Shown here one piece after another: positions 808 through 7,635 of a stretch of DNA of 64,000 bases. The translations under genes and the position numbers were made by a program. Position 1 is the first letter of the stretch, and the number at the start of each line of letters is the position of its first letter. Source of the stretch: Methylotenera versatilis 79 (GTDB taxonomy: Bacteria; Pseudomonadota; Gammaproteobacteria; Burkholderiales; Methylophilaceae); NCBI RefSeq assembly GCF_000384375.1, contig NZ_ARVX01000001.1, forward strand, positions 930,001-994,000. The letters are read 5' to 3'. The notes under the pieces are model-generated. The model saw only the letters and a list, made by a program, of their open reading frames with translations. It ran no database searches and was not told the DNA's origin.

Positions 808-1065
808 ATGCAAAATATGACAACAGAAGTTTATGTGCGCGTTAAGGCAGTATTGGCATCACAAGCGGAGCTTAATCAAGACGCTGGCAATCTCGATTTA
901 GACGATGATTTGTTTGCAGCGGGAATGAGTTCACGTGCAACGGTGGGGGTAATGTTGGGGCTTGAGTCAGAATTTGATCTTGAGTTTCCCGATGCGATGC
1001 TGCGCCGCGATGTTTTCGAAAGCGTACGTGCGATTAGCAATGCCATTACTAGCTTGCAAGCTTAG
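808..1065 (+). CDS. acyl/aminoacyl carrier protein
   Basis: An 85-residue acidic protein with the carrier-protein fold signature DDDLFAAGMSSRATVGVM. By alignment with the canonical GxDS motif, Ser42 is the expected 4'-phosphopantetheine site; the usual Asp before it is replaced by Ser41. The last helix (FPDAMLRRDVFESVRAISNAI) is typical of the family. AAGG lies about 8 bases before the ATG. It is followed after 2 bp by an acyl-CoA-dehydrogenase-like gene and then by an amino acid:carrier protein ligase, so it is most likely the dedicated carrier that receives an activated amino acid rather than the fatty-acid ACP. The cognate amino acid cannot be read from the sequence. Confidence 0.88.
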   Translation: MQNMTTEVYVRVKAVLASQAELNQDAGNLDLDDDLFAAGMSSRATVGVMLGLESEFDLEFPDAMLRRDVFESVRAISNAITSLQA

Positions 1066-1067
1066 AG

Positions 1068-2240
1068 ATGCTAGCCAATCAGGCTCAGGTTGACGCGCGA
1101 CTTGCAGACATAGAACGTATTGGCCGCGAGATTGCTAGCGTCAATGCGGTTGATGTTGATGCGAACAGCCGCTTTCCGATTGAGGCTATCACGGCGTTAC
1201 GCGCAACGGGTATTTTTGCAGCACCGATTTCTGTCGAGTTTGGTGGCGTAGGCGCAGATGCTATTGAATTAGCGCGTGGCTGCTGGATTTTAGGACAATA
1301 TTGTTCGGCTACTGCATCAATCGTAGCGATGCATCACACACAAATTTTGTCGGTTGTGCATCACGCTAATGATAATGTTCAGCTGCAAGATTATTTACGT
1401 CGAGTCGCACGTGATAATCGCATTATCGCCTCGGTCACTTCTGAAGTAGGGCCTGGTGGCGATATGCGCAGTAGTAATTGCGCGGTAGAGGTTGAAGGCG
1501 ATAGTTACACGCTGACCAAAAAAGCGACTACCGTTTCTTATGGTAGTTATGCCGATGACTTAATGATTACCGCACGTAAAAATGTGGATGCAGCTAGTGG
1601 CGATCAAGTGTTAGTGATTGCTGAAAAAGGCCAATTTCAATTACAAGATCAAGGCGTGTGGGATACTTTAGGCATGCGTGGCACTTGCAGCCCGCCGGCC
1701 ACTATTGTTGCAAAAGGCGCTGCCTGGCAAGTGATATCCACACCATTTGCAGATATAGCCACCTATACAATGGTGCCAACATCGCATATTTTTTGGTCTT
1801 CATGGTGGTTAGGTTTAGCGACAGATGCGGTAAGTAAAGCGCGCGAATTATTTCGTGCCAAAGGCCGCTCTAATCCAGGTGTAACGCCAATGGGCGCACA
1901 TCGTGTGGCCGATTTAGACGCCGAGCTGCAAAAAATGGAATACGAAGTATTTGGTTTAGCGCGCGAATACGCAGAAGCATTAGCCGTTAAAGACCTGCAA
2001 AAACTATCCAGTTTGGCATTTTCATTGCGGATTAATACACTTAAGTTGAATAGCTCACGTGCTGTGGTGGCAATTGTGAGTGAAGCTTTAAGTGTATGTG
2101 GTATTCAGGCTTACAAGAATAATGGGCCATTTTCATTAGGGCGGCATCTGCGCGATGCGCATTCGTCCGTGATGATGGTGCATAACGACCGCATCCAATT
2201 AACTAATGCGGCAATGTTGCTGGTGCATAAAGGCAATTAA
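1068..2240 (+). CDS. acyl-CoA dehydrogenase-like flavoprotein
   Basis: 390 residues with acyl-CoA dehydrogenase architecture: N-terminal helical domain, central beta domain (around IIASVTSEVGPGGDMRSSN and DTLGMRGTCSPP) and C-terminal four-helix domain. It starts 2 bp after the carrier protein stop, so the two are almost surely co-translated. The C-terminal stretch LGRHLRDAHSSVMMVHNDRI resembles carrier-protein-associated members and group D flavin monooxygenases rather than mitochondrial-type fatty acyl-CoA dehydrogenases. Family knowledge allows either FAD-dependent alpha,beta-desaturation of a thioester or flavin-dependent oxygenation. From context the substrate is probably the aminoacyl thioester on the adjacent carrier; this is inference. 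Confidence 0.8.
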   Translation: MLANQAQVDARLADIERIGREIASVNAVDVDANSRFPIEAITALRATGIFAAPISVEFGGVGADAIELARGCWILGQYCSATASIVAMHHTQILSVVHHANDNVQLQDYLRRVARDNRIIASVTSEVGPGGDMRSSNCAVEVEGDSYTLTKKATTVSYGSYADDLMITARKNVDAASGDQVLVIAEKGQFQLQDQGVWDTLGMRGTCSPPATIVAKGAAWQVISTPFADIATYTMVPTSHIFWSSWWLGLATDAVSKARELFRAKGRSNPGVTPMGAHRVADLDAELQKMEYEVFGLAREYAEALAVKDLQKLSSLAFSLRINTLKLNSSRAVVAIVSEALSVCGIQAYKNNGPFSLGRHLRDAHSSVMMVHNDRIQLTNAAMLLVHKGN

Positions 2241-2302
2241 AAATAGTCTTAAGTTAAGTCGTCATAAAATAATAATTAAGCGGCAAATTAAAGGGGACAA
2301 AA

Positions 2303-3217
2303 TTGGATAAACTTGATGATGCGCATTTGGCATTTAAAGCACAGCTTTTTCAACACAAACTACTACTAGATAGCGGCGTAAAAGGCATTGTTGGTCGCGC
2401 AGCGCCTCTAGTCGAATTGGTGAGCAGCTTGCAAAGCATGATTGATCGCGAATCCAAAAAAGATGGTGCGGTAAAAGCTTGCTTTCCGCCAGTCGTACCA
2501 CGCGAATTGCTGCGTAAAGTGGGTTATATGGAAAATTTCCCTAACTTATGTGGCTCTATCAGTACTTTTTCTGGAGGCGATAAAGAGCAACTTACGTTAG
2601 TTGAAACGGTGAAAAGTGGCGGCGATTGGTCACCGCATTTAGTGCAAACTGAAGTGACTCTAACACCTGCCAGCTGTTATCCCTTATACCCAACGCTTGC
2701 AGGTACGCTACCAGATGGCGGCGTATTATTCGATTTAAATTGCTACTGTTTTCGACATGAACCATCCAATGATCCTGCACGTTTGATGAGTTTTGAAATA
2801 CGTGAAAATGTCCGTGCCGGTTCGCCAGCAGATGTTCAAAAATGGCGTAGCGATTGGCTTAATCGAGGTCAGGGATTGATTGAGTCATTGGGGTTACCTG
2901 TATTTTTAGATACTGCTAGTGATCCTTTTTTTGGCCGTGGCGGCCGAATGATGAAAGCCAGCCAAAAAGAGTTAGAGCTTAAATTTGAATTGTTAGTGCC
3001 GATCTGGGGTGAAGATTCACCCACTGCTGTGGCTTCATTTAATTATCATCAAGACCACTTCGCCCATATATTCGGCATTCATACTGCAGATGGAAAAGGT
3101 GCACACACGGCTTGTTTGGGTTTTGGTATTGATAGGTTAGTTATTGGTTTGCTTAAAACACATGGTTTTGACATGAAAGCTTGGCCTGCCAGCGTACGCC
3201 AAACTTTGATGATGTGA
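2303..3217 (+). CDS. amino acid:carrier protein ligase (class II aaRS-like)
   Basis: 304 residues resembling the catalytic core of atypical seryl-tRNA synthetase without the tRNA-binding arm. Known members activate a small amino acid (Gly or Ala) with ATP and load it on the phosphopantetheine of a carrier protein instead of tRNA. Motif 2 is visible as CFRHEPSNDPARLMSFEIRE (about 148-168) and motif 3 as CLGFGIDRLVIGLL (271-284). Cys125, a Glu at 165 or 168, and Cys271 fall where the family's Zn ligands lie. The start is TTG, preceded by AAAGGGGAC at good spacing; no ATG fits better. The carrier protein gene two positions upstream is the natural partner. Confidence 0.88.
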   Translation: MDKLDDAHLAFKAQLFQHKLLLDSGVKGIVGRAAPLVELVSSLQSMIDRESKKDGAVKACFPPVVPRELLRKVGYMENFPNLCGSISTFSGGDKEQLTLVETVKSGGDWSPHLVQTEVTLTPASCYPLYPTLAGTLPDGGVLFDLNCYCFRHEPSNDPARLMSFEIRENVRAGSPADVQKWRSDWLNRGQGLIESLGLPVFLDTASDPFFGRGGRMMKASQKELELKFELLVPIWGEDSPTAVASFNYHQDHFAHIFGIHTADGKGAHTACLGFGIDRLVIGLLKTHGFDMKAWPASVRQTLMM

Positions 3218-3223
3218 GTCTGT

Positions 3224-4207
3224 TTGATGAGCGCGCAACAGCAATTATTTAATTTAACACCCGCGATGTTTAGTCCACATACGCTGCACGGTTTTAATCA
3301 AAATTTTCGTGAAACCAACTGTTATGGTGATTTGATTATTGAGTTAGTTTACAGCTTAGGGCTTGAGCCAACAGCTTGCTTAGCCTATACATTGGCAGTC
3401 GATTTTGAGGGTGATCAGTGGACTTTCGGCAAGCCATCAGGTCACGATTTAATGCAGCTATATGGTATCCGCATAGAAGAACTATCGCTGTATCGCTTAC
3501 TAATCGATCAAATTGTGACGCAAATACAGCGCGGATCCGTGCCTTTGCTTGAAGCAGATGCATATCATTTGCCCGACACCGCAGGAATCGATTATCTGGT
3601 TAACCATGTTAAAACCACCATAGCAATCACGCATATTGATGTCGAAAATAAAGTGTTACGTTATTTTCATAATGCAGCATTTGCTGAGCTAAATGGTGAG
3701 GATTTTGACGGTGTTTTGCGGCCGTTAATCAGCGCTCAAAAGGGATATTTACCCCCTTACTGTGAGTTGGTGAAGCTTGATATGCTAAAAGTATTATCCC
3801 AAGATGAACTACGCGCACTGGCATTTACCAGCGCAAAATTTCACCTTAAAAAGCGACCACGTCGCAATCCTATTGAGCAACACGGCTTGGTAATGGCTGA
3901 GCATCAGCAAAATATGATTTCAGGTGGACAAGCGTTTTATCATGCCTATACATTTGTGGCTTTACGGCAATTGGGTGCGGCACATCAATTAGGCGCGCAT
4001 TTTTTGCGCTGGTTAAATGCTGATGATGAGAATCTAAAAGCTTCTGCAAACGCATTTGAGCAAATCTCTGCTGCCGCTAAAATGCTGGTATTAAAGCTTG
4101 CTCGTGTCAGCTATAGCGCCAAGCCGACTGATTTAACGGCAATATTCGTAGAAATGGCGGCACAATATGAGTTAGCAAGCCAACATTTGGATGTGGCATT
4201 TTCTTAA
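3224..4207 (+). CDS. DUF1839 family protein, possible aminoacyl transferase
   Basis: 327 residues that I recognise as DUF1839. Conserved-looking blocks are the N-terminal ETNCYGDLIIELVYSLGLEP, then AYTLAVDFEGDQWTFGKPS, LEADAYHLPDTAG and the HVKTTIAI strand. An early Cys, with a later Asp and His in the DAYHLPDTAG block, resembles the papain-like N-terminal domain of BtrH, which moves an aminoacyl group from a carrier protein to an amine. Transfer of the amino acid loaded by the upstream ligase is therefore a reasonable but unproven role. It starts 6 bp after the ligase stop. An ATG one codon later is equally possible. There is no signal peptide, so it is cytoplasmic. Confidence 0.75.
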   Translation: MMSAQQQLFNLTPAMFSPHTLHGFNQNFRETNCYGDLIIELVYSLGLEPTACLAYTLAVDFEGDQWTFGKPSGHDLMQLYGIRIEELSLYRLLIDQIVTQIQRGSVPLLEADAYHLPDTAGIDYLVNHVKTTIAITHIDVENKVLRYFHNAAFAELNGEDFDGVLRPLISAQKGYLPPYCELVKLDMLKVLSQDELRALAFTSAKFHLKKRPRRNPIEQHGLVMAEHQQNMISGGQAFYHAYTFVALRQLGAAHQLGAHFLRWLNADDENLKASANAFEQISAAAKMLVLKLARVSYSAKPTDLTAIFVEMAAQYELASQHLDVAFS

Positions 4208-4212
4208 ATGTC

Positions 4213-6744
4213 ATGACAGTGTCTGACGCCAATTCTGCAATACCACACGCCTTTTTATCATTAGCGGGTGAAACAGTTGAAACTCTAAATACGCAGGCAG
4301 GTTACCAGTTTTCTTATCTAACAACTGAGGATGGCGTTTACGAAATACCTGCTGATATTCCAAAAGATGCAATTTTTAATGTAACAACTGTACCTGGCAC
4401 CATCACAAGCAACGATGTACAGAAAGACGCACAATTAGATCAGTATGATCATTGGGTATGTATTAGCTTTAACGCGACTACTCATTCAAATACGGTAAAT
4501 TTTTTACAATTTGATGGGCTTCTTACGCACGCAGATGTATTTTTAAACGGCAATCTAATTGTGCAATCGCGGAACGCTTTCCAGACACACTTGGTGAATG
4601 TGAGCGCACACTTACAAGCGAACAATCAGCTATATATTTGTTTCAGAGCAATCGCGCCTTTATTAGCGAAAAAACAAGCACGGGGCCGTCACTCAACAAA
4701 ATTGGTGAATGAGCGACACTTACGCTTTATTCGCACGCCAACGCTGGGTTATATGCTGGGTTTTGCCTCGGCAACTAAACTAATCGGTGCTTACAGGCCA
4801 ATATCATTAGTTACTCAACAACAGTTTTTGGTGCAATCCTCACAAATAGATACGCATTTATCGCTGCCGAATACAGGTGTTTTTACACTGAATTTACAGC
4901 TAAAAAGTTTGGTTAAGTCGCCAGAAAGCGTCATTTTGTTAGTGATAGATGAATCGACTCAAACACAGGTCGCCCATTACCCAGTTAATATTAGTCAGCA
5001 ACAAGACATGATTTATATTAAGGCAAGTGGCGATGTACAAAATGTCGCTGCGTATTGGCCGCATACACACGGTAAGCCACAACGTTATTTATTTAAATTG
5101 GTATTAGATACAGATTGTGAAATACAGCTAGGTCTTTATGGTTTTAGGCAGTTTTCGCGAGTAGACAACCAAATTAATATGAACGGCACACCAATTTTTT
5201 TACGTGGTGCATGTTGGACACCGATGAGCCCAGCCAATTTGCAAACATCCGCAGAAGATTTACGTGAACGTTTGAATCTACTCAAGCGAGCGGGTATTAA
5301 TATGTTGCGTATTCCTGGCAATATGCCGTACGAATGTGATGATTTTTACCAACTGTGCGATGCGCTCGGCATACTGATTTTTCAAGATTTTGCCTTTACC
5401 AATTTTGATTATCCTGATACCGATACGGATTTTGTGGCTAGCGTGACGGTTGAGGCAACTCAGTTTTTAAACAAACACGGTAACCGTGCCTGTTTAAGTA
5501 TTTTGGCGGGCAATAGCGAAGTAGCGCAACAAGCATCTATGATGGGGTTAGATTTAAATCAACTAGGAAATCCTATTTTTGATGATGTGTTGAAGGGTTT
5601 ATCAGCACAATTCGCGCCCAACGTAACCTATATCAGCTCTAGCCCAATGTCAGACACGATTCCGTTTCATGTAGGTAATAATAATGGCAGTTCACATTAC
5701 TACGGCGTTGGTGGTTATATGCGTGATTTTGACGATGCACGTTTATTTAAAGGCCAGCTTATTGCTGAATGCTTAGCATTTTCGCATGTGCCAGAAGAAT
5801 CCAGTTTGATTCAATTTTTTAATCAAGAGTTGTTACCAACCCATCATCCGCACTGGAAAGAAGGTGTACCAAGAGACAATGGCGCAGGTTGGGATTTTGC
5901 TGACATTACTGATTATTACGTTGAGCAATTGTTTGGTGTTAACGTTAAATCGCTGCGCGCTACGCAACCGCAACGCTATTTAGATTTATGCCGCGCAGCA
6001 AGCTGTGAGGTAGTTGAACGAACCATGGCAATATTTCGGTCAAATGCGCCGAAAGGCCGCGCCGCTTTGGTGTGGCTGCTACACGATTTAAAACCTGGCG
6101 CAGGTTGGGGTTATATTGATAGCTTTGGTGTACCAAAATCGCCGTTTTACGGCTTAGCGCGCGCGTCACAACCTATCACAGTTTTATTTGTAGACGAAGG
6201 TTTGGAAGGCCTTGCCGTTTACTTGGCAAATGATAGTGCGGAATTGTTAGATTATCAGCTTGAAATCGCTTTGATCACAGCAGAAGGCTCTTTATTTGAG
6301 CGTGCTACACAAGCCTGTCAATTAACGCCGCGCAGTGTTAAGCGTATTAGCGTTGATGCATTCTTGGGACGATTTGTAGACTCGAGTTATGCCTACCGCT
6401 TTGGTGCGCGCGGCTTTGTGGCAACGGTGGCTAAACTCACCAATTTAGATGGTGAAATCATTAGTCAAAAAGTGTTTGTAGAACCAAGTTTAACACTAGA
6501 AAATCGCCAAGATGTTGATATTGTGGCTACATTGAAGCAAGTAGAAATTGACTGTTATTGCCTGAGTTTAAGCACAAATAAACCTGCGTTTTTCGTCACA
6601 ATTGATGTACCCAATTGCACTTTAAGCGATAATTATTTTCACTTGATGCCAAGCTACTCTATGCAAATTACGCTTACAAGTCGTGATCTTAAGTTGCATG
6701 GGCGTGTACGGGCATTAAATACCCAAGCGGTTGCAATAAAATAG
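4213..6744 (+). CDS. glycoside hydrolase family 2 protein, beta-mannosidase-like
   Basis: 843 residues. It has an N-terminal jelly-roll sugar-binding domain (FDGLLTHADVFLNGNLI, about 98-114), an Ig-like region, then a TIM-barrel starting near INMNGTPIFLRGACWTPMSP. Glu436 in AGNSEVAQQ fits the GH2 acid/base (an Asn usually precedes it; here NSE). Glu519 in LIAECLAFSHVPE fits the nucleophile, so the enzyme is probably active. There is no signal peptide, so it would act on an intracellular glycoside. It sits 5 bp after the DUF1839 gene and abuts the thioesterase, pointing to one operon. A glycosidase in a carrier-protein pathway is unusual; the sugar substrate is unknown. Confidence 0.82.
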   Translation: MTVSDANSAIPHAFLSLAGETVETLNTQAGYQFSYLTTEDGVYEIPADIPKDAIFNVTTVPGTITSNDVQKDAQLDQYDHWVCISFNATTHSNTVNFLQFDGLLTHADVFLNGNLIVQSRNAFQTHLVNVSAHLQANNQLYICFRAIAPLLAKKQARGRHSTKLVNERHLRFIRTPTLGYMLGFASATKLIGAYRPISLVTQQQFLVQSSQIDTHLSLPNTGVFTLNLQLKSLVKSPESVILLVIDESTQTQVAHYPVNISQQQDMIYIKASGDVQNVAAYWPHTHGKPQRYLFKLVLDTDCEIQLGLYGFRQFSRVDNQINMNGTPIFLRGACWTPMSPANLQTSAEDLRERLNLLKRAGINMLRIPGNMPYECDDFYQLCDALGILIFQDFAFTNFDYPDTDTDFVASVTVEATQFLNKHGNRACLSILAGNSEVAQQASMMGLDLNQLGNPIFDDVLKGLSAQFAPNVTYISSSPMSDTIPFHVGNNNGSSHYYGVGGYMRDFDDARLFKGQLIAECLAFSHVPEESSLIQFFNQELLPTHHPHWKEGVPRDNGAGWDFADITDYYVEQLFGVNVKSLRATQPQRYLDLCRAASCEVVERTMAIFRSNAPKGRAALVWLLHDLKPGAGWGYIDSFGVPKSPFYGLARASQPITVLFVDEGLEGLAVYLANDSAELLDYQLEIALITAEGSLFERATQACQLTPRSVKRISVDAFLGRFVDSSYAYRFGARGFVATVAKLTNLDGEIISQKVFVEPSLTLENRQDVDIVATLKQVEIDCYCLSLSTNKPAFFVTIDVPNCTLSDNYFHLMPSYSMQITLTSRDLKLHGRVRALNTQAVAIK

Positions 6745-7635
6745 ATGGAATATAGTGAAACTATGCCTCAAGATGCATCAATATTAATGAATACGCTACC
6801 ACCTAAATTATATCGCGGCTTGCTCATGCTTACCTCTTCATGGGTGGGGGAGCGTGTCAATGAGAAATCTTTACTGATTAAAGTCCACGATGTACCAAAT
6901 GCAACAAAATTACCGTTAATTTGGTGTGGCGGTCCGCCAGAAATGGGCACAATTATTAGTATTTTCGGTAAAGAGCGCACGATTTATGGCCTGCGTGGTA
7001 CGTACGATTTTGTAGAGCCAACACATGATGTGATTACTGCCTTAAGCCAATATTATGCAGATGAAATTGAGCGCACGATTCCGTCACAAACTTATTTAAT
7101 TGCAGGCTACTGTGCCGCTGCTTACATTTCGATAGAAGTAGCTAACTTGCTAATGCAACGCGGCTACAAAATTGGTTTTTTAGGATTAGTTGATCGCGAT
7201 GTCACTGAAAAAACGAAGATGCTACGTGTGTTTAGAAAGCTATTTGATTGGACAGACAGGCTTGGTGCTAAAGCTTATGCATTAAGAGATGCGATTAAAC
7301 AACAAGATACCCGTTTTAAAATAACTAACACGCTGAAAGTTATTAACACTGGTTCAAACAAACCAGTCGAAGATCCGCGTAATCGTATTAAATATGTCAA
7401 AAAACCTGCTGAAGCGATGTATGAACTTAAGCCTTATTCAGGCAAAGTAAATTTGTTTTTCATCCGCTGGGGCGTGTTTGGTTATTATCAATTAGGCTTT
7501 TTTAGACGTTACTGGCGCAAAATTGCCAAGGGTGGTTTGCAAGTAGAGTTTGTACCAGGATATTCCCATAAATATCCATCATGGCCACTTATTATTCGCA
7601 TGTTGCATAATCGATTAAATGAGACTGGCTATTAG
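6745..7635 (+). CDS. alpha/beta-hydrolase thioesterase with Cys nucleophile
   Basis: 296 residues with the fold of NRPS/PKS-type thioesterases. The nucleophile elbow reads AGYCAAAYISIEVA, so Cys123 takes the place of the usual Ser. The Asp of GLVDRD and the His of PGYSHKYPSW are plausible triad partners. A thioesterase at the end of a carrier-protein operon would release or transfer the product from the carrier; Cys-type domains in related enzymes often act as acyltransferases. The start codon follows the GH2 stop directly with no spacer. A second in-frame ATG lies at 6763, and neither has a clear ribosome-binding site. It is the last gene of the run. Confidence 0.75.
   Translation: MEYSETMPQDASILMNTLPPKLYRGLLMLTSSWVGERVNEKSLLIKVHDVPNATKLPLIWCGGPPEMGTIISIFGKERTIYGLRGTYDFVEPTHDVITALSQYYADEIERTIPSQTYLIAGYCAAAYISIEVANLLMQRGYKIGFLGLVDRDVTEKTKMLRVFRKLFDWTDRLGAKAYALRDAIKQQDTRFKITNTLKVINTGSNKPVEDPRNRIKYVKKPAEAMYELKPYSGKVNLFFIRWGVFGYYQLGFFRRYWRKIAKGGLQVEFVPGYSHKYPSWPLIIRMLHNRLNETGY

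Follow-up and report, generated by a model that had tools for sequence, protein, structure and literature searches.

Six genes at positions 808 to 7635 of a 64,000-nucleotide stretch of Methylotenera versatilis 79 (contig NZ_ARVX01000001.1, positions 930,001 to 994,000; this whole stretch is called the window) raise the question of whether a carrier protein, an amino acid ligase, a flavoprotein, a DUF1839 protein, a glycosidase and a thioesterase serve a single pathway and, if so, what it makes. The original prediction, made from the letters alone, had proposed such an aminoacyl pathway. We found the gene set conserved across many genomes, and the cluster is an example of a kind of pathway predicted in 2010. 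Our preferred explanation, which we hold with a confidence a little short of even, is one pathway in which glycyl or alanyl carrier protein would be made, probably oxidised, and amide-linked by the DUF1839 protein to an amino sugar of an envelope glycan. The families, key residues and co-conservation come directly from the sequences; from them we infer the amino acid and the acceptor as well as each reaction and the sequence of steps. The six genes are as follows.

808..1065, + strand: carrier protein (ACP), Ser42 being the predicted 4'-phosphopantetheine site (NF005480, PF00550)
1068..2240, + strand: flavoprotein of the acyl-CoA dehydrogenase fold (ACAD), without the usual catalytic Glu (PF02771, PF00441)
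2303..3217, + strand: amino acid:carrier-protein ligase, resembling class II aminoacyl-tRNA synthetases (aaRS), without a tRNA-binding domain (NF005479, 3mey)
3224..4207, + strand: DUF1839 protein, a predicted papain-like, carrier-dependent, amide-forming transferase with Cys33, His128, Thr132 and His149 (PF08893, AlphaFold2 (AF2) model, Foldseek)
4213..6744, + strand: GH2 glycosidase of beta-mannosidase type, probably cytoplasmic, with Glu436 and Glu519 as the predicted catalytic pair (profile against 5n6u)
6745..7635, + strand: alpha/beta-hydrolase thioesterase, Cys123 being the likely nucleophile (GYCAAAY; PF00975)

All six open reading frames (ORFs) were confirmed as closely spaced genes on one strand, with intergenic gaps of 2, 62, 6, 5 and 0 bases and with families above their cut-offs. 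The DUF1839 gene probably starts at an in-frame ATG at 3227, one codon inside the listed TTG ORF.

Conservation of the gene set

A census was made of loci with at least 8 kb on both sides of DUF1839, comprising 15 of 22 loci from the window's own phylum and 45 of 80 named loci, the latter drawn from a scan of the genomes of bacteria and archaea in which the best 80 of 582 relatives were kept; the cluster of the window itself lies too near the edge of the stretch to be counted. Many named records are metagenome-assembled genomes (MAGs), several are Mesorhizobium, and two loci (L076 and L077) share their genomes with L029 and L030, which means that the sets cannot be treated as independent. ACP, ACAD, ligase, DUF1839 and GH2 were found together within 8 kb in all 15 own-phylum loci and in 38 of the 45 named loci, whereas none of these five families occurred in 19 arbitrary control regions of cluster-bearing genomes, where one acpS match was seen. 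This comparison rules out a chance grouping and supports the proposal of one conserved gene set. Taken singly, ACP was present in 43, ACAD in 43, the ligase in 42 and GH2 in 43 of the 45 named loci. With the threshold set at 5 kb, 16 of 17 own-phylum loci kept the set; the miss was L033, which is anchored on a second DUF1839 copy. The check suggested with the original prediction, whether homologous clusters keep the ligase with DUF1839, GH2 and thioesterase, was thus run: the first three are retained, but a fused hydrolase often takes the place of the thioesterase.

Within the phylum, DUF1839 was detected in 16 of 398 genomes and the ligase, above its cut-off, in 28, which include all 16. Judged by record titles, five-gene loci occur in genera that belong to the Pseudomonadota, Myxococcota, Acidobacteriota, Gemmatimonadota, Actinomycetota, Chloroflexota and Planctomycetota. 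In a Brevibacillus locus (L087) four of the five are present (ACP, ACAD, ligase and DUF1839), and the only GH2 piece lies more than 8 kb off. Many loci titled as Burkholderiales genera consist of two divergent runs instead of one.

Proposed loading of the carrier

The proposal of an aaRS-derived ligase with its own carrier was upheld. The ACP scored 87 bits against NF005480 (cut-off 72), and G39 and S42 are among the positions conserved in at least 93% of 21 copies; against the DltC model it reached only 23 bits (cut-off 68). A nonribosomal peptide synthetase (NRPS) or fatty-acid reading of the ACP was rejected, condensation and ketosynthase domains being absent from all six proteins. The ligase, of 304 amino acids, scored 381.7 bits against NF005479 (cut-off 357), and its closest solved structure is the amino acid:carrier-protein ligase Bll0957 of Bradyrhizobium (3mey, E 2e-78). 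The seryl-tRNA synthetase (SerRS) model was covered only at 221-504 of 518 positions, indicating that the tRNA-binding domain of type-2 SerRS is missing. C125, E168 and C271 were found in 21 of 21 copies and align with C151, E196 and C299 of the 3mey chain; we take these shared Cys/Glu/Cys positions to be zinc ligands. Loading of glycine or alanine on carriers by such ligases was reported in 2010, according to the available parts of PMC5370406 and PMC9437257, and the latter, a 2022 review, calls their biological role unknown. The window's ligase would use ATP to activate a small amino acid, which in the studied relatives is glycine or alanine, and would charge the phosphopantetheine arm of the dedicated ACP with it.

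The flavoprotein scored 38.6 bits against PF02771 (cut-off 22.9). All 21 aligned copies have V or I at position 371 and S, A or C at position 239, so that no Glu stands at either catalytic place; we presume 371 (near the C-terminus) and 239 (helix G) to be the places of the usual catalytic Glu. An ordinary, alpha,beta-dehydrogenating acyl-CoA dehydrogenase was rejected because this Glu is missing. His240 is invariant (21/21). The flavoprotein may act on the ACP-loaded aminoacyl group, probably oxidising it.

Twelve genomes have the ligase above cut-off without DUF1839, and 11 of these loci, with 7 kb of flank, were counted. ACAD was present in 11 of 11 and a recognisable ACP in 9, whereas DUF1839 and GH2 within 7 kb were found in none. 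Since these loci keep ACAD and lack DUF1839 and GH2, ACP, ACAD and ligase are best seen as a loading module and DUF1839 and GH2 as an acceptor module; the flavoprotein step is assigned to the loading half because ACAD stays with the ligase where DUF1839 is missing. Weaker ligase homologues stand without any partner (6 of 16 such genomes examined). In 6 of the 12 ligase-only loci the ligase is followed by a gene such as L160:10041-10916 (291 amino acids), a candidate acceptor-side partner. It looks GNAT-like by eye, but gave no Pfam or NCBIfam match.

Three loci (L140, L143 and L149, two of them MAGs that may be incomplete) keep ACP, ACAD, DUF1839 and GH2 without a ligase, and their genomes yielded no match to it (0/3). 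In L140, a MAG titled Gammaproteobacteria, an amino acid adenylation gene (L140:5904-7445; TIGR01733, 361 bits, cut-off 317) immediately precedes the ACP gene in the same orientation; an NRPS adenylation gene replaces the ligase in this one cluster. Prediction of its amino acid was attempted by eye and abandoned, as no reliable code was obtained. The other two are weak cases: L149 has an adenylation domain of 267 bits, below cut-off, that is truncated where the locus ends and lies on the opposite strand at a distance of about 10 kb from the ACP, and L143 an AMP-forming ligase of CoA type 3.5 kb off. Three further loci (L078, L080 and L081) have no nearby ligase and one elsewhere in the genome (3/3).

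An AcpS-type phosphopantetheinyl transferase gene was found near the cluster in 20 of the 45 named loci. PF01648 occurred in 24 of the 130 nearest flanking genes of named loci (130 of 418 genes, at most three per locus, six extra Mesorhizobium loci and L076 and L077 left out). In one AcpS BLAST family of 22, every member is found no more than about 110 bases from the ACP.

Proposed transfer, acceptor and competing explanations

The DUF1839 protein scored 311 bits against PF08893 (cut-off 22.5), and its AF2 model has a mean pLDDT of 91. Foldseek matched the model to CtaG (E 2e-7), AziU3 (5e-7) and CcbD (5e-4) with probability 1.0; all 14 matches with E of 0.001 or less were CtaG, AziU3 with AziU2, or CcbD. 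This fold match agrees with the proposal that DUF1839 is the protein that probably moves the aminoacyl group. Of 20 aligned copies (3 of 23 were unaligned), 18 keep Cys33 and all keep His128 and His149, either of which may be the partner of the Cys. No viral relatives appeared in a single-sequence scan. In the searched literature DUF1839 was named only in PMC10318531, which, in its available part, assigns it a papain-like fold with a C-T/S-H triad and proposes a part in the processing of cell-wall glycans. According to the accessible text of PMC12945683, CcbD and LmbD take a carrier-bound amino acid onto a Cys and then acylate the amino group of a thiooctose with it, CcbD joining carrier-bound proline to the amino sugar. 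Like CcbD, DUF1839 would accept the aminoacyl group on Cys33 and hand it on to an amino sugar, forming an amide at its amino group. Two possible pseudo-enzyme pairs of DUF1839 were also seen, in G736 (L033:7401-8381 and L033:12232-13344, about 4 kb apart) and in G664 (L025:8935-9921 and L032:88-1188, on different contigs).

The GH2 domains PF22666 and PF17753 were both above cut-off, and a profile comparison with beta-mannosidase 5n6u gave E 9e-96, aligned over 37-804 of 829 positions. Glu436 and Glu519 stand at the mannosidase motifs in 18 of 18 aligned copies (3 of 21 were unaligned). The Asn that precedes the acid/base Glu (GNNE) is replaced by Ser in 17 of the 18 and kept in one. In related glycosidases this Asn contacts the sugar 2-hydroxyl; the replacement therefore makes a 2-amino or 2-acylamino sugar a possible substrate. 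No signal peptide was seen by eye, without use of a predictor. A cytoplasmic GH2 may work on the same sugar, by trimming or proof-reading of a beta-glycoside. In L029:6174-8782 the GH2 gene lies in two frames, through either a real break or an assembly error.

The presence of a Cys thioesterase in the cluster was likewise confirmed: the window enzyme scored 37.5 bits against PF00975 (cut-off 26.4), and the Ser nucleophile of GxSxG is replaced by Cys in its motif GYCAAAY. Many relatives have instead a fused protein of about 600 amino acids, and 3 of 3 tested match exosortase A hydrolases 2 then 1, below both cut-offs; the second half bears Cys motifs such as GLCSGAY. Cys was found in 63 of 66 matched hydrolase segments, the remaining three being cut or fragmented (some genomes are counted twice). 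Three loci titled as Ktedonobacteria genera (L115, L137 and L150) have after GH2 an enzyme with GFCSG, GFCNG or GYCNG that aligns with the window thioesterase, and that of L137 matches PF00975. A free-standing or fused Cys hydrolase was present in 34 of the 45 named loci and in 10 of the 15 from the own phylum, so this enzyme is common but not constant. Its role may be to remove or pass on acyl groups that are wrong or have stalled on the ACP. A gene for an S-adenosylmethionine-dependent methyltransferase follows the fused hydrolase at L027:7758-8528 and L028:12367-13134.

The sugar-linked acceptor that the original prediction had hinted at is plausible. DUF1839 and GH2 are present or missing together (both in 43 of 45 named and 15 of 15 own-phylum loci, neither in the ligase-only loci), which ties the acceptor side to the glycosidase. 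The most likely acceptor would be a glycan precursor, of the envelope or of an exopolysaccharide. In a scan of 122 of 137 own-phylum flank genes, glycosyltransferase group 1 was found in 9, GNVR (Wzc type) in 6 and ManC-type domains in 3, whereas among 122 of 191 control genes these families fell outside the top 25 of 196 listed, so that each occurred at most once. The 130 named-locus flank genes, which have no control set, contained Bac_transf in 4, Polysacc_synt_3 in 2 and methyltransferases in 7. Because the glycan link is visible in own-phylum flanks and weak in named-locus flanks, we rate it as moderate.

Several observations weigh against the amino sugar pathway. The cluster is rare in the Methylophilaceae (4 of 150 genomes), and 3 of these 4 family loci, including that of the window, adjoin waaA and a reductase, not a polysaccharide locus. 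Own-phylum loci come from few families, and the 122 flank genes are therefore not independent; among the 130 named-locus flank genes, again without a control set, no glycosyltransferase family was in the top 25. AcpS was found in none of the 15 own-phylum loci and not in the first 20 kb of the window. Promoter-like sites (20 vs 21.5 in shuffles) and terminator-like sites (6 vs 7.9) did not exceed chance and lend no support to a single transcript. The fold matches of DUF1839 have TM-scores of about 0.6 and identities of 8-14%, and no sequence-level relation to solved proteins was found. Cys33 is lost from the in-cluster DUF1839 of G664 and G736, both of the window's order, the second copy retaining it. 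The predicted likeness to BtrH is indirect: the fold matches are to CtaG, AziU3 and CcbD. DUF1839 had no Pfam match to BtrH_N (PF14399), and hhalign against nine BtrH_N proteins was not significant (probability 4.4%, E 0.0094), although in that alignment Cys33 falls on the BtrH_N Cys.

The amino sugar pathway can be drawn more boldly, as a tRNA-free, aaRS-driven counterpart of the lincosamide synthetase, present in about seven phyla by record titles, that places oxidised glycyl or alanyl groups on amino sugars of surface glycans, with GH2 acting on the aminoacylated sugar and the Cys hydrolase being a second acyltransferase, not an editor. We consider this fuller version rather doubtful.

Alternatively, the product could be a small diffusible aminoacyl-aminoglycoside, a lincosamide-like secondary metabolite, with GH2 as an intracellular activating or resistance glycosidase and the glycan neighbours incidental. 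The significant fold matches of DUF1839 are all natural-product enzymes, the window cluster has waaA and a ribonucleotide reductase and no exopolysaccharide locus beside it, and named-locus flanks hold little glycan machinery, all of which would fit. Against this, the gene set is constant and widely spread, glycosyltransferase, Wzc-type and ManC-type genes adjoin own-phylum clusters, and no exporter or resistance family is prominent among the listed flank families (ABC transporter in 5 of 122 own-phylum genes, none in the top 25 of named loci). We regard a diffusible product as unlikely.

DUF1839 could also make an ester, or modify a protein or lipid amine, with GH2 recycling an unrelated glycan. 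CcbD takes other amines too, as stated in the accessible text of PMC12945683, and the assignment of the acceptor is itself indirect; the joint presence and joint absence of DUF1839 and GH2 argue against a separate role for the glycosidase, and we judge this explanation quite unlikely. Very improbable is an editing or storage system in which DUF1839 and the Cys hydrolase only strip aminoacyl groups from ACP without a product, which the co-occurrence of two Cys enzymes with acyl-transfer or hydrolase folds might suggest but which leaves GH2, the flavoprotein and the fold match to amide-forming CcbD unexplained.

Relation to known systems and neighbouring genes

The pathway had been called a candidate undescribed one, a claim that was not supported. 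A 2010 note in proof (PMC2922099, in its available part) describes the same ligase neighbourhood in Agrobacterium. It predicts that Atu2574 forms an amide with the amino group of a cell-surface sugar and that the redox enzyme is a modifier, probably acting by monooxygenation. The papain-like fold of DUF1839 is likewise already given in the available part of PMC10318531. The Atu2574 type shares with the window the ACP, redox enzyme, SerRS-like ligase, conserved ORF (equal to DUF1839), glycosidase and predicted chemistry, as far as the available text of PMC2922099 goes, and that text does not name a thioesterase, a phosphopantetheinyl transferase or the fold of the ORF. Unlike that description, the window has a free-standing Cys thioesterase and adjoins waaA. 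What the present analysis adds is the census of loci, the fold match of DUF1839, the division into two modules, the replacement of the ligase, and the presence of a Cys hydrolase and of AcpS.

Bll0957 belongs to the same ligase family as the window protein, and the acyl-CoA dehydrogenase gene bll0958 (acd) neighbours it by locus tag (PMC10888616, available part). The ligase-only loci are taken as similar to the Bll0957 layout, and a Cys hydrolase, like DUF1839 and GH2, was found in 0 of 11. The lincosamide synthetase (LmbD/CcbD with the LmbN/CcbZ carrier) shares a Cys enzyme of the DUF1839 fold and the joining of an amino acid to an amino sugar, within what the accessible text on it covers; it differs in having an NRPS-type adenylation protein instead of an aaRS-like ligase and in its product class. 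In the Dlt system, too, a carrier, DltC, bears an amino acid for envelope modification; DltA is an ANL enzyme, and Dlt transfer is made by a membrane acyltransferase. We know of no GH2 in lincosamide synthesis. The fused hydrolase of relatives resembles the exosortase A system through TIGR03100 and TIGR03101, below cut-offs, whereas the window's single PF00975-type Cys enzyme matches neither model. The steady partners, the fold of DUF1839 and the loading/acceptor split turn the open role of amino acid:carrier-protein ligases into a few direct assays. If the preferred pathway is true, aminoacylated sugars would arise without tRNA and, for the most part, without the use of an NRPS adenylation domain.

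The predicted adjacency to waaA holds: the divergent upstream gene scored 550 bits against NF004386 (cut-off 524). Downstream of the cluster lies a B12-type ribonucleotide reductase. The fourth family locus, L030, has a glycosyltransferase 2 nearby and a flippase match just under cut-off. A gene for a sigma-54 activator with a VpsR domain (L042:4999-6390) adjoins the cluster in a genome of the same order. EpmA, the EF-P lysine ligase (TIGR00462, 385 bits; L034:4423-5442), lies a few kb from the cluster, and similar genes were seen by eye in L036, L038 and L040. PF00152 was found in 4 and EF-P in 3 of the 122 own-phylum flank genes, placing a second aaRS paralogue near the cluster, perhaps by chance.

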